NCBI GenBank assembly: GCA_958295905.1
Contig: OY282382.1
Location: 248,001 to 312,000, forward strand
Source of the DNA: an uncultured Vicinamibacterales bacterium
Lineage (GTDB): Bacteria; Acidobacteriota; Vicinamibacteria; Vicinamibacterales; UBA8438
Length of the DNA stretch: 64,000 bases
Reading direction: 5' to 3'
Shown: piece after piece, positions 15,212 through 53,155 of the stretch
Layout of the letters: the number at the start of each line of letters is the position of its first letter
How positions within the stretch are numbered: the stretch's first letter is position 1
Made by a program: the position numbers and the translations under genes
The notes under the pieces: generated by a model
What the model was told of the DNA's origin: nothing
The model's database searches: none
Seen by the model: only the letters and a program-made list of their open reading frames with translations

Positions 15212-15544
15212 CAGGACCATCCCGCGCTCCGCCACGGCCGTGCGCAGGCGGAATCGTGGCGGGTCCTGGGGCTTCGGACGTGCGGAATCGTGGGTCTCAC
15301 GCGGCGCCGGCCGGTCGGAAGGCGTTGGCGACCCCTCGAATCGGGGGCGAGCCGTCACGCGCAGTCAGCGTAGCAGGCCGTGGCAGAAGTGGTGCTGCAT
15401 CCGGCCGGGCCGTACTCGGCCCAAGAACGTGTCGTGCAGCCGTCGAAATCGCCGAAATCTGGCCGATCCGAGCCGTTTCCGCGCCACCGCCGGCCGGTTT
15501 TGGCGCACCGCGGAGTTTTGCCACGGGCTGGTAGGATGCTCCCG
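15212..15544 (+). mobile_element. Repeat family 2, copy A (about 172 bp), interrupted by MITE
   Basis: The left end CAGGACCATCCCGCGCT and right end AGCGTAGGATGCTCCCG are imperfect inverted repeats. Homologous copies lie at 25322-25482 (same strand) and 38825-38996 (opposite strand). The 4 bp GTAG plus a 157-bp MITE split the right end; removing them restores the terminus. Flanking 9-bp direct repeats GGCGCTCAC occur at 15203-15211 and 15545-15553, the latter touching the 3' end of the flavin reductase gene. No coding capacity. Confidence 0.75.
15374..15530 (+). mobile_element. MITE copy 1 (157 bp), IS1182-type ends
   Basis: Terminal inverted repeats are CAGGCCGTGGCAGAA at 15374-15388 and TTTTGCCACGGGCTG at 15516-15530 (13 of 15 pair). 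A target duplication GTAG flanks it (15370-15373 and 15531-15534). It is nearly identical to 31217-31374, apart from a one-base indel and a few substitutions. Its right-hand end matches the ends of the IS at 51699-53155. Confidence 0.85.
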
Positions 15545-29393: not shown

Positions 29394-30117
29394 GTGGCTG
29401 GTCCCGGTCTTGATTCCGGCGCTCCGGACTACTTCGAACCCGCGCCCTTCAATGACCCCGAGCTCGTGCATCCCGGCGCCCCCCGCGCCGGTATCGATCG
29501 ACTCGGCGACCGCATCGCCGAACTTTCCGCCCGCATTCAGGCCGCCACCTACGAGCTGCTGGTCCTGATCCGGCAGTTCGACGAGGCCAACGGTTGGTCG
29601 GGTTGCGTCTCGTGCGCCCACTGGCTGAGCTGGCGCACCGGACTGGCGCCGGGTGCCGCCCGCGAGCACGTGCGGGATGCGCGGGCGCTGAGGAGTCTTC
29701 CGAAGCTGAGCGACGCGATGCGGCGCGGCGTGGTCTCCTACTCGAAGGTGCGCGCGGTGACGCGGGTGGCCACGCCGGAGACCGAGCAGGCGCTGCTCGA
29801 CGTGGCGCTGTGCGGCACGGCCGCCCACGTGGAGCAGGTGGTTCGCGGCTGGCGGCGGGTGGACCGGGCGGCCGAGCAGGCGGAAGACCGGCGGCGGCAC
29901 GCGGCGCGGTCACTGAGCACCTGGGTGGATGACGACGGGATGGTGGTGGTGCGCGGGAGACTGACGCCGGAGGTGGGGGCCGTGCTGCGGCGCGCGCTCG
30001 AGGCGGCCTGTGACCAGGCGCAGCAGGCGGACGCCGGCAGGGACGCGACCCGTGAAGTCGCGGGCGCGGTCGATACGGCGGCAGCCTACACGGCGGAGGC
30101 TGCGATTGAGCAGATCT
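29394..30117 (+). pseudogene. DUF222 (13E12-type) protein gene, 3' end lost
   Basis: The frame encodes a DUF222 domain (RIAELSARIQAATYELLVLI, GWSGCVSCAHWLSWRTGLAPGAAREHVR, ARALRSLPKLSDAMRRGVVSYSKVRA...). DUF222 proteins normally end in an HNH endonuclease domain. Here homology stops around 30117, where an IS21-type end begins, and the frame runs out at 30239 in unrelated sequence, so the HNH domain is gone. It starts at GTG 29394. A TATAAT at 29334-29339 may be its -10. Confidence 0.75.
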
Positions 30118-30776
30118 CTGTTGTCGAGCGCCTGAAAGTGAGCATTTCTGCGCCGCCATCGACTTTGCTCACTGCTAACCGCCGTTGTCGGCTGCCCGTT
30201 TGCGGGACGGGCGTTTGCGGCTGCGCTGCTGCCGGGTGAGCTCGGCCTCGCGGCGGCGATAGCTCTGGCCCTCGATGACGAGGATCTCCGCGTGGTGGGT
30301 CAGGCGGTCGATCAGGGCGACGGCGCAGGAGGCATTGGGGAAGACGGTGTCCCAGTGCTTGAAGGGCAGGTTGGTGGTAATCAGCAGGGACCGGCGTTCG
30401 TAGCGGCGGCTGACGAGCTGGAAGATGAGGTCGGCGGCGCGTGCATCGTAGGCGAGGTAGCCGACCTCGTCGATCGCGAGCAGCGCGGGGCGGGTGTAGT
30501 GCTTGAGGCGGCGTTCGAGGGTGAGGGCGGTCTCCTGTCCGCTGAGGTCGAGGAGGAGATCGGCGGCGGTGGTGAAGAGGGCGGAATGGCCGGCGAGGAT
30601 GGCTTGGTGGGCGATGTTCTTGGCGAGCATGGTCTTGCCGAGGCCCTGGGCGCCGACGAGGATGACGTTCTCGCCGCGGGAGAGGAAATCGAGGGAGAGG
30701 ATGCGTTCGAGGGCGGGTCGGTTCATGCAACAATCGGGAGGACTCCGATTTGTTGATCTGCATGGAGTAGCCGAGA
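30118..30776 (-). mobile_element. IS21-family remnant
   Basis: It contains the truncated istB at 30175-30726 and an IS21-like end near 30118 (GCGCCTGAAAGTGAGCA on the plus strand). istA and the other terminus are absent. It separates the truncated DUF222 gene from the rloB-like gene. Confidence 0.65.
30175..30726 (-). pseudogene. istB: IstB ATP-binding protein, N-terminus missing
   Basis: 183 residues from the ATG at 30726 show the IstB AAA+ core: GENVILVGAQGLGKTM (Walker A), RPALLAIDEVGYLAYD (Walker B), SLLITTNLPFKHW (sensor), and RLTHHAEILVIEGQSYR. The usual N-terminal 60-80 residues are replaced by non-homologous sequence, and no istA precedes it. IstB helps IstA choose targets in IS21 transposition; this copy is probably inactive. 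Confidence 0.85.
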
Positions 30777-31508
30777 TCATTTGCGGGTTTTACGATGAGG
30801 CTCAAAGCCGAGAACTGTGAGAAGTTTTTGCAACTCCTCGTCGTACCGCGCCGCTCGCCGCACATCGGACAAGGTGAAGCGCCGGCTCAACTGATCCGCC
30901 GTCGGTGGCTTGCGGTATTCGGGCCAGACCTTTCGAAGCTCCGCCATCGCGTCGCCTGCCATTATTCTCCGCTGCTCGTGTCCCGGACGCAGCCTGAACA
31001 GCAATCCTTCCAGGTTCGGGTCCTGAAAGAGCATCTTCAGGTTCCATCCGGACGCTGCGGCCTGGGCGTCGCGTCCGGCCTTCAGGTCCTGCTCGATCCG
31101 ATCCCGATCGAGCAAGACCAGCTTGTCGCTGATGTCCCTCTTCGCGGAATGTCTCGCCAAGTGGCGACCGGCTTCTTCGACGACGGAGACCGAATCGCCG
31201 CCGCCCCCCGGCTTGACAGGCCGTGGCAGAAGTGGTGCTGCATCCGGCCGGGCCGTATCTCGGCCCAAGAACGTGTCGTGCAGCCGTCGAAATCGCCGAA
31301 ATCTGGCCGATCCGAGCCGTTTCCGCGCCACCGCCGGCCGGTTTTGGCGCGCCGCGGAGTTTTGCCACGGGCTGTTGATGATCAGGTGCAGGTGCCGGCC
31401 TTCGCTGTCGCAACAGCGTTGCAGGAATTGTGCGAAGGCCCGCTCGCTCTCTCCCTCGACGCCGATGAAAATGACTCGCCTTGGTTCGACCGGTCGGCGG
31501 CGGCGCAT
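30777..31508 (-). CDS. RloB-like TOPRIM protein carrying an in-frame MITE insertion
   Basis: The 243-residue frame begins RRVIFIGVEGESERAFAQFL (TOPRIM Glu) and later shows KLVLLDRDRIEQDL (Asp motif), as in RloB/OLD-type TOPRIM nucleases. It lies 6 bp downstream of an AAA ATPase gene of the RloA type. Between HLHLII and GGGGDSVSVVEEAG a 54-residue foreign segment (SPWQNSAARQNRPAVARKRL...) is encoded by the MITE at 31217-31374 plus its 4-bp target duplication (162 bp, 54 codons). Deleting it restores LIIKPGGGGDS. The product is probably altered or inactive unless the loop tolerates it. Likely part of an abortive-infection type system. Confidence 0.8.
   Translation of the reverse strand: MRRRRPVEPRRVIFIGVEGESERAFAQFLQRCCDSEGRHLHLIINSPWQNSAARQNRPAVARKRLGSARFRRFRRLHDTFLGRDTARPDAAPLLPRPVKPGGGGDSVSVVEEAGRHLARHSAKRDISDKLVLLDRDRIEQDLKAGRDAQAAASGWNLKMLFQDPNLEGLLFRLRPGHEQRRIMAGDAMAELRKVWPEYRKPPTADQLSRRFTLSDVRRAARYDEELQKLLTVLGFEPHRKTRK
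31217..31374 (+). mobile_element. MITE copy 2 (158 bp) inside rloB-like gene
   Basis: Ends are CAGGCCGTGGCAGAA (31217-31231) and TTTTGCCACGGGCTG (31360-31374). Target duplication TTGA lies at 31213-31216 and 31375-31378. Nearly identical to 15374-15530. The inserted length plus duplication is 162 bp, so the host frame is kept. Confidence 0.9.
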
Positions 31509-31514
31509 CGCTTC

Positions 31515-32726
31515 TCAGCCGATCTTCGGGATACCGCCGAGCACCCCCGCCCGGTACTTGGGATAGAGGCGGGTGTCGCGGCGAAGGCCATGCACGTCCT
31601 GGGCGCCGTGCACCCGGGTCGCGCCGCCGTTGTCCTTTTCGACGATGAAGAGCTCCTCCTTCTCCAGATCGTCGAGGAGGCCGACGTTATGGGAGGAGAC
31701 GAAGAGTTGCGCGTCACGGGGGTTGGTTTCCGGGGAACGAAACCAGCCAAGCACTTCACAGGCGATGTCCACGTGCAGATCGCCTTCGACCTCGTCGAGA
31801 GCAACGGGAACGCCGCGGGCGAGTGCGATCCTGATCTGGGGCAGCAAATGGAACAGGCGCTTCGTCCCGCTGGATTCGGCATACAGACCGACCGGCGCGT
31901 CGAGTCCACGATGGTTGAAGAACACCGAGTCCTCTCCGCTGTCGCCAAGCATGCTCATGTCCTGAATCCCGAGGTCGCCGGACTGGATGTACTGCACGGT
32001 CCAATCTTTCAGTTTAGGATTTTTCTTGAACATCTCGATCACTGCCTTGGTTGGAAGCTCCCATTTCTCGTGATACAGGACGTTGCTGGCAACCCAGGTA
32101 CGCCGCATCGATTCCGCGATGCGCATGGCCAAGGGCACGTTGAGCAGGGCGAGCGTGGCTATCACCGAGGCGTCCGCCCGAACCGCCTTGAGGCGCTCAT
32201 CCCCGGGTTTGAGCCCGAGTTCGCGGGAGACGTATATGGGTTTCCCCGGACCGGCGCGCTCGAAAAGACGGCGGGGACGGCCCTTCGGGAAACAGGACAG
32301 CGCTTCGTAACAGAGGACATGGTTCTTGAAACCGGTATCGTCGCGTCCCACGACCACCTTGTAGCGGAATAGTTGCCGGGGCTCGCCCGGCGCCAGCCAA
32401 TCCGCCTCGACCTCCAACAGGAACCGTGTCGGTTCTCCCCTGGTCTGGGTCGAAGCGAAGGGGAGGAACGCCTCGATCGGGTTGTTCTTCTCTGCGGGCG
32501 ACGCGGAAGAGGCGATCTGGGCGATTTCGAGCAGTGCCCTGAGCAGGGTCGACTTGCCCGACCCGTTGGGTCCCATGAGCACCACCACGGAAGGGAGCCG
32601 GACATCCGGCCTGGCCGCGCTTGGCCGGAAGCGTGGCAGGTCGGGGGCGGTTCCCGGAATGCGCAGGTCGAGAACCACCTCTTCGCGGATCGACTGGTAG
32701 TTGGAAACGGAGAATGCATGGATCAT
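31515..32726 (-). CDS. AAA ATPase, RloA/OLD-like
   Basis: 403 residues, ABC-type/SMC-like ATPase of the AAA_15/AAA_21 kind. Seen: the N-terminal FSVSNYQSIREEVVLDL strand pattern, Walker A MGPNGSGKST at about 51-60, a central helical region (75-250), an SSGTKRLF signature-like motif, Walker B PVALDEVEGDLHV and SSHNVGLLD. It is followed 6 bp downstream by the rloB-like gene. In RloAB/PARIS-type pairs such an ATPase senses invasion and controls a TOPRIM or nuclease effector. This specific system assignment is inference. Confidence 0.85.
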   Translation of the reverse strand: MIHAFSVSNYQSIREEVVLDLRIPGTAPDLPRFRPSAARPDVRLPSVVVLMGPNGSGKSTLLRALLEIAQIASSASPAEKNNPIEAFLPFASTQTRGEPTRFLLEVEADWLAPGEPRQLFRYKVVVGRDDTGFKNHVLCYEALSCFPKGRPRRLFERAGPGKPIYVSRELGLKPGDERLKAVRADASVIATLALLNVPLAMRIAESMRRTWVASNVLYHEKWELPTKAVIEMFKKNPKLKDWTVQYIQSGDLGIQDMSMLGDSGEDSVFFNHRGLDAPVGLYAESSGTKRLFHLLPQIRIALARGVPVALDEVEGDLHVDIACEVLGWFRSPETNPRDAQLFVSSHNVGLLDDLEKEELFIVEKDNGGATRVHGAQDVHGLRRDTRLYPKYRAGVLGGIPKIG

Positions 32727-51698: not shown

Positions 51699-53155
51699 CA
51701 GCCCGAGGTAGAAGTCCCCGGTGTTCAGATGGCTGGCTGAAGGGGCCGGTGGCTCGATAGCGCGGCGACCCGCGCCGAATTGGGCCGGAATCGCGTCAAG
51801 AGCCGCTCCAGACCGCTCCACAGGCCCACAAACCGCCCAATCAGCCCGCAGACGGCGGATACCACCCCGCCCCGCAGGCCGCGGGGCGTGCCGGCGCCGA
51901 TCGCCTGACGCAGAAGCAGCCCGAGGTTGAGGCCCGCGACGTGCACCAGCAGGCGCTTCAGGATGTTCGAATGCCCCCGAAGGTGCACCCGGCGCATCCC
52001 GCCGGTCTCAAACAGGTGCGCAAACGGACGCTCCACCAGCTCGCCACGACGCCGCAGCAAACGCCGGCCCCGCTTGCCCCGGATCCGGCGCCGGTTCCCA
52101 TACACCGCGTCCCGAGCCTCCGGCGCGTTCTTCCAGCTCCGCCGGCCCCGGTCCGGCTCCGCAATGTAGCTCCGAACCTCCACCGCCGCCAAATCCACCA
52201 TCGTCTCGTTGCTGTGGTAGCCCTTGTCCGCAACCACCTCCGAAACCCCCGCCGCCTCCGGCAACACCGTCTCCACCTGCTCCGTCGCCGTCACGAGGGT
52301 CTCGGCCATCGTCGCCGTATCCCCCTTGTCCGCCCCCTGGATCGTCACACCCACCACCGCACCCGTCTCCAGATCCACCGCATGCTCCACCTTGTGGGCC
52401 AGGTGGGTGCTGCCGTCCTTCATCTTCGCGACCTTCGCGTCCGGGTCGTGGGGGTGGGTCCAATCCTTGTTCGACGTCTTCTTCTTCCGCTTCCGGTCAA
52501 AACGCGCCAACTCCTCCGCCGTCGGCGTCTCGATGCCGGAAGCTTTCGCCAAACGGGTCAGGAACGCCGTGTAATCCTCGCCCGTGTCACGCCGAACGAT
52601 GCTCCGCATCGCCGCGTTCGCCTCCAGCGTCGTCGCATCGACGCCCAACGTCTTCCCCGCAACCAAGCCCGCCCCCGCCAACTGCTCCAGCACCCAAGTG
52701 AACACCGCCTGATGGGTCTCCACCGGGAACAGCCGACGCGTCCGCGAAATCGTCGAATGGTCCGGGGGCGCCGCCGGCGCCGCCAAACGCAGAAACGCCC
52801 GCATGCTCAGCGAATCCTCCGCGCGCCACGCGATGCCCCGCTCCGAGTCCAGCCCTTCGAAGTACCCGATGAGCAGCAATCGGAAGTACCGTCCGGGAGC
52901 CAGACTCGGCCGGCCCATCACCGCGTAGAACGGCGCGCACAGGCCTTCGACGAACGCGTCGAACCCTGCCGCCTCCAGAATCCGGTTCAGTCGCTCGTAG
53001 AACGGATGCCCCGCACTCTGCGACAGATCCGCCGTCGCGACCCACATCGACTGCTGCGACCCGTCGTCGCGCACCGTGCCCATTGCCATGCCCGCCAGTG
53101 TAGTACATGGGGGCCGCCCTGTCGATCCCTGGACGCCGACTTTCACCACGGGCTG
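51699..53155 (-). mobile_element. Intact IS1182/IS5-like insertion sequence (1457 bp)
   Basis: Ends CAGCCCGAGGTAGAAGTC (51699-51716) and GACTTTCACCACGGGCTG (53138-53155) form an 18-bp inverted repeat with three mismatches. Target duplication GTAG lies at 51695-51698 and 53156-53159. One transposase gene fills it. A partial copy lies at 33564-33985, and two MITEs share its terminal CAGCCCGTGG. Confidence 0.9.
51725..53089 (-). CDS. IS1182-type transposase
   Basis: 454 residues from the ATG at 53089 (53083 also possible); longer frames start outside the IS. A DUF772-type N-terminal domain (YFRLLLIGYFEGLDSERGIA, PDHSTISRTRRLFPVETHQA) is followed by the DDE core: GVDATTLEANAAMRS (first Asp), VADKGYHSNETM (second Asp) and GELVERPFAHLFETGGMRR (Glu of the YREK-like region). 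The protein is full length and unbroken, so the element may still move. Confidence 0.92.
   Translation of the reverse strand: MAMGTVRDDGSQQSMWVATADLSQSAGHPFYERLNRILEAAGFDAFVEGLCAPFYAVMGRPSLAPGRYFRLLLIGYFEGLDSERGIAWRAEDSLSMRAFLRLAAPAAPPDHSTISRTRRLFPVETHQAVFTWVLEQLAGAGLVAGKTLGVDATTLEANAAMRSIVRRDTGEDYTAFLTRLAKASGIETPTAEELARFDRKRKKKTSNKDWTHPHDPDAKVAKMKDGSTHLAHKVEHAVDLETGAVVGVTIQGADKGDTATMAETLVTATEQVETVLPEAAGVSEVVADKGYHSNETMVDLAAVEVRSYIAEPDRGRRSWKNAPEARDAVYGNRRRIRGKRGRRLLRRRGELVERPFAHLFETGGMRRVHLRGHSNILKRLLVHVAGLNLGLLLRQAIGAGTPRGLRGGVVSAVCGLIGRFVGLWSGLERLLTRFRPNSARVAALSSHRPLQPAI

Follow-up and report, generated by a model that had tools for sequence, protein, structure and literature searches.

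A multicopy 158-bp MITE lies in frame in a predicted AbiL-type defence gene of a Vicinamibacterales bacterium

A 158-bp MITE has recently inserted, in frame, into the second gene of what is best called an AbiL-type operon, within the 64,000-nucleotide window analysed here (contig OY282382.1, positions 248,001 to 312,000, of assembly GCA_958295905.1, from an uncultured Vicinamibacterales bacterium). The corresponding site is empty in a close homologue, the element belongs to a family without a stop codon in any of its six frames, and further copies lie in frame in other genes, where the family is depleted and its copies are young. As a joint account, we consider it highly probable that this MITE, moved in trans by an IS, kept the reading frame of this gene and of six or more others, and that such genic insertions are harmful and lost.

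The insertion and its host gene

The element occupies positions 31217-31374 of the window on the plus strand, with ends CAGGCCGTGGCA...TGCCACGGGCTG, and stands between two copies of a TTGA target-site duplication (31213-31216 and 31375-31378). Its terminal inverted repeats read CAGNCCGTGGCA at each end and are perfect in 33 copies. It is short and without transposase coding capacity, it is identical to other copies in the genome, and because it is multicopy the insertion cannot be put down to chance. As the first-pass annotation had proposed, the 158 bp together with the 4-bp duplication add 162 bp, exactly 54 codons, to an rloB-like gene, and an open reading frame at 30777-31508 crosses the element from end to end.

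Removal of the element restores the host frame, again as foreseen: the joined flanks form a gene of 570 bp with 93.5% DNA identity to a 570-bp gene at locus L161, which carries a single TCAA (TTGA on the minus strand) at the site where the host gene carries TCAA-158 bp-TCAA, and both copies of the duplication are assigned on this basis. Homologues of the protein were found outside the source genome at L161 and L162 (labelled Gammaproteobacteria), L163 (Acidobacteria) and L164 (Nitrospirales), and among relatives in genomes G012, G007, G002 and G005. In an alignment with homologues from four other genomes, the 54 residues are absent from all four proteins, which elsewhere share 90, 88, 66 and 68% identity with the host protein, making the insertion unique to the latter; none of these four MITE-free homologues carries the same 54 residues. 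The MITE insertion into this gene is real and recent.

The interrupted gene (30777-31508, minus strand) is an AbiLii/RloB-like gene of TOPRIM type that encodes 243 amino acids with the insert, while its closest homologues have 189, and its uninterrupted partner, the 5' gene of the operon (31515-32726, minus strand), is an AbiLi-like AAA ATPase (PADLOC AbiLi, 1.4e-53). The second gene matches AbiLii, RloB and DUF4276-type families weakly (AbiLii 0.0019 with the insert and 0.00017 in a clean homologue; RloB 0.001 in the L164 homologue). Since the AbiLi match is strong and the others are weak, the operon is best called AbiL-type and its second gene RloB-like, an assignment made from sequence that agrees with the earlier description of a TOPRIM/RloB-like defence gene. 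The arrangement resembles known AbiL (AbiLi/AbiLii) and RloB-like TOPRIM systems in pairing an AAA ATPase with a small, adjacent TOPRIM-type gene on the same strand, and differs from them in the weakness of the AbiLii and RloB matches and in the 54-amino-acid insert.

Two observations concern the surroundings of the operon. The protein is 90% identical to that of L161, labelled Gammaproteobacteria, against ~53% to that of a same-genus genome, which suggests that the AbiL-type operon (30777-32726) was acquired by recent horizontal transfer. An IstB-like (IS21) gene fragment at 30178-30726 abuts the AbiLii gene at its 3' end; the fragment may cut short a DUF222-like gene at 29394-30236, both family names being read from the sequence.

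The principal alternative for this locus is that the MITE simply inactivates AbiLii and that read-through is irrelevant to the cell, a reading to which we give even chances. The 54 added residues are basic and fall between the VEGES glutamate motif (invariant VEG, E18) and the D-x-D motif (DRD; D134, D136), lying, in the protein alignment with four homologues, a few residues ahead of the invariant GDS; a search of the source genome for a second AbiLii homologue found none. Against inactivation, the remainder of the open reading frame is intact, the TOPRIM acidic residues E18, D134 and D136 are all retained in the 243-aa protein, and the residues flanking the insertion site vary among homologues. 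The predicted fused protein, whose insert-spanning sequences would be HLIINSPWQNSAAR and LLPRPVKPGGGG, is more likely impaired than improved. AlphaFold predictions made from 4-5 sequences had too little confidence to be informative, with the insert or without it (pLDDT 36 and 39).

The MITE family and its candidate helper

The family numbers ~80 copies in the 6.3-Mb genome. A first search of the source genome returned 40 near-full copies and a local profile search 74, to which later searches added a few more places; a second copy within the window, of 157 bp with a GTAG duplication, lies in intergenic DNA (15374-15530, plus strand). Among 47 clean 4-bp duplications the core is mostly TA, and most of the remainder have TG or CA. 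The termini are ~15 bp long with no long palindrome beyond them, pairing is good in the terminal repeats alone (RNA fold z -1.5 and -2.5), and an Rfam search near the insertion site gave nothing at gathering level. In 149 relatives we found no good match to the MITE, the hits there being weak, partial and 21-45 bp long; PLSDB plasmids gave no match, and viral contigs gave none for one terminal pattern of the element.

Two copies, on the main contig (L118:16225-16382) and on contig C2 (L126:17841-17998), are 97.5% identical, share a CTGG duplication and lie in related DUF2126-type sequence, with upstream flanks just ~76% identical; the pair may reflect either gene conversion or repeated insertion.

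The MITE is probably mobilised by an IS of 1457 bp at 51699-53155 (minus strand; duplication GTAG; termini CAGCCCGAGGTAGAA / CAGCCCGTGGTGAAA), the best candidate helper. This IS, which occurs in many near-identical copies, encodes an IS1182/IS5-like transposase with DUF772 and DDE_Tnp_1 domains. Its 4-bp duplications (CTAG, CTGA, TTAC, GTAG) are of the same NTRN kind as those of the MITE and its CAGCCCG... termini are similar, and IS1182/IS5-type MITEs are among the known systems closest to the present one, but several of the first 15 terminal positions differ, the transposase scores 170.5 bits where the curated IS1182 cut-off is 270, and this IS is a putative parent of the MITE. Our searches found no transposase with exactly matching MITE termini. 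A pair of MITE termini at 590851-592768 was considered as an autonomous parent and rejected, as an ISL3-like IS with its own 8-bp duplication, GCACAACT, interrupts a MITE copy there (L078:9052-10975, equal to C1:590851-592768). In a separate chimera, at L074:9935-10045, a 34-bp MITE end abuts 79 bp from the interior of the candidate helper IS.

Open frames and insertions in other genes

The trinucleotides TAA, TAG, TGA, TTA, CTA and TCA are all absent from the element, so that the stop-free minus-strand frame reported in the first-pass annotation, although true, understated the case: six frames are open. The family consensus likewise contains none of the six on either strand. Such openness occurs in 0.07% of mononucleotide shuffles, ~1.2% of dinucleotide shuffles and ~2.3% of random 158-mers of the genome. 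Given the lack of stops and the total of 162 bp, an intact copy preserves the reading frame in either orientation and in any phase, except where a stop arises at the junction with the duplication. A literature search found no report of a six-frame stop-free MITE family, which is weak evidence that the feature may be new as a reported one.

To call the genes around each copy, we used a home-made GC3-trained dicodon finder, trained on the source genome and run after each MITE copy had been excised, which recovers the AbiL, DUF222-like and IstB-like genes. Ten of the 74 near-full copies lie in called genes, and seven convincing genes carry a 158-bp, stop-free, in-frame copy, among them AbiLii, which leaves at least six other hosts. 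These six encode a Fic protein (L089), a protein that Pfam does not match and whose counterparts in ~25 relatives do not have the 54 residues (L090), what its sequence suggests is a membrane protein (L091), an LRR-metalloprotease (L105), a NADAR-HsdS protein in which the insert lies between the two domains (L111), and a tyrosine recombinase (integrase; L116). Three different frames of the element are read (one in AbiLii, L090 and L111, another in L089, L091 and L105, the third in L116), and hence no peptide is conserved across hosts. Exceptions among the genic copies are a frameshifting copy of 157 bp (L123) and an old copy with stops (L094). We dropped L118 as an additional host gene, the sequence there being, by Pfam, a decayed DUF2126/transglutaminase fragment.

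Some copies also touch gene boundaries. Seven overlap the stop codon of a neighbouring gene (L099:9842, L102:10261, L104:10340, L106:9604, L108:14939, L115:9958 and L211:14325), and where the duplication is clean the stop codon is duplicated and the gene end left intact; another (L110:15512-15669) lies on a predicted start codon, with the duplication ATGG/ATGG.

Genic copies are strongly depleted, at 10 of 74 against the ~70% expected from target-weighted coding content (p ~1e-23), an estimate that rests on copies from similarity search because the genome was sampled (~1.56 Mb, picked around known copies and some IS loci). They are also young: eight of the ten differ by at most one position from another copy, compared with 14 of the 64 intergenic copies (p=6e-4), which may reflect merely a recent burst. 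Two of the seven hosts have uninserted paralogues, identical for the L116 integrase (3940709-3941998) and 98-99% identical for the L090 gene (2592293-2593591). Genic insertions look transient, and the pattern resembles that of a selfish MITE able to enter genes afresh owing to its compatibility with coding sequence.

These observations bear on whether selection acting on the element itself favoured six-frame openness and the 162-bp length as a means of harmless genic insertion. The consensus has zero stop trinucleotides on both strands, with a chance of ~1-2% for openness and one in three for length, but among so many MITE families a joint chance of roughly 0.5% is unremarkable, and genic insertions are depleted nonetheless. 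The first-pass annotation had also looked to a bias of genome copies for open frames, and at the level of copies none appears: distinct substitutions that create stops number 23 against 25.5 expected (p=0.26). An apparent per-copy deficit of stops (49 against 96) does not count in favour of selection, as it is due to the shared ancestry of the copies and vanishes when each change is counted once. With stop-making substitutions as frequent as expected, openness is a property of the family ancestor, and the copies show no selection to remain stop-free. We therefore regard selection at the level of the element as improbable.

Relation to known elements and implications

The strongest case of in-frame genic repeats is that of the Rickettsia palindromic elements (Ogata 2000, 2002, in PMC10969869), with lesser cases among ERIC, QMITE, BOX and Anabaena MITEs (PMC10969869; PMC5896051). 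The present MITE resembles the Rickettsia elements as described in the relevant passages of PMC10969869, repeats of ~150 bp that lie in frame in many unrelated genes and add a peptide to each, but it has short terminal inverted repeats, a 4-bp duplication and no long palindrome, it is not conserved in the 149 relatives searched, and its genic copies are few where those of Rickettsia persist. Intragenic ERIC, the Coxiella elements QMITE1 and QMITE2 (PMC5896051), BOX and Anabaena MITEb/e (PMC10969869) are likewise described with open frames and sometimes with fusion to the host open reading frame, although their sequences and termini differ from those of the MITE studied here. The passages on such repeats in PMC5896051 and PMC10969869 contain no report of a six-frame stop-free family with an insert length that is a multiple of three.

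The first-pass annotation had likened the element to those of Rickettsia as a source of new protein segments, and that part of the comparison is not supported, given the three frames read, the depletion and youth of the genic copies, the missing palindrome, and the intact uninserted paralogues, 98-100% identical, of two of the seven hosts; the genic copies show no sign of lasting protein innovation of that kind. That genic elements are retained because the host tolerates the added peptide or profits from it is a reading that we consider improbable, since the shared antisense orientation of the element relative to the gene in 7 of 7 convincing hosts (two-sided p ~0.016, a small sample) and the more frequent insert lengths divisible by three in genic than in intergenic copies (9/10 against 30/64, p=0.015) are set against the absence of a common peptide, the depletion in genes, the near-identity of almost all genic copies to another copy, and the confounding of the length bias by youth, 158 bp also being the length of 8 of the 14 young intergenic copies.

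On the account that we favour, a non-autonomous DNA transposon (MITE) recently entered the second gene of the AbiL-type operon at a 4-bp target of NTRN type, probably moved in trans by the IS1182/IS5-like transposase with similar termini; as the 162 bp bring no stop in any of six frames, the gene can still be read through into the predicted 243-aa protein. The same event has taken place in at least six other genes, through three different frames of the element, and insertions of this kind probably do mild to strong harm and are lost over time, presumably through selective removal. A more speculative idea, which we think improbable, is that the family, stop-free on both strands and adding 54 codons in total, has been shaped to be coding-neutral, so that in a genome dense with genes it spreads by lengthening proteins where it would otherwise knock genes out; if so, the host would receive a standing supply of 54-residue insertion variants.

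Rickettsia provides the best-known case of repeats inserted in frame into bacterial genes; the present family lies elsewhere, and the hosts of its in-frame copies include a predicted defence gene and one for type I specificity. A gene can receive a MITE without its open reading frame being cut short, a point of relevance to automatic annotation of pseudogenes. With relative copy ages, empty sites and an identical uninserted paralogue, the family offers a direct test of whether genic insertions of this kind are tolerated or purged.
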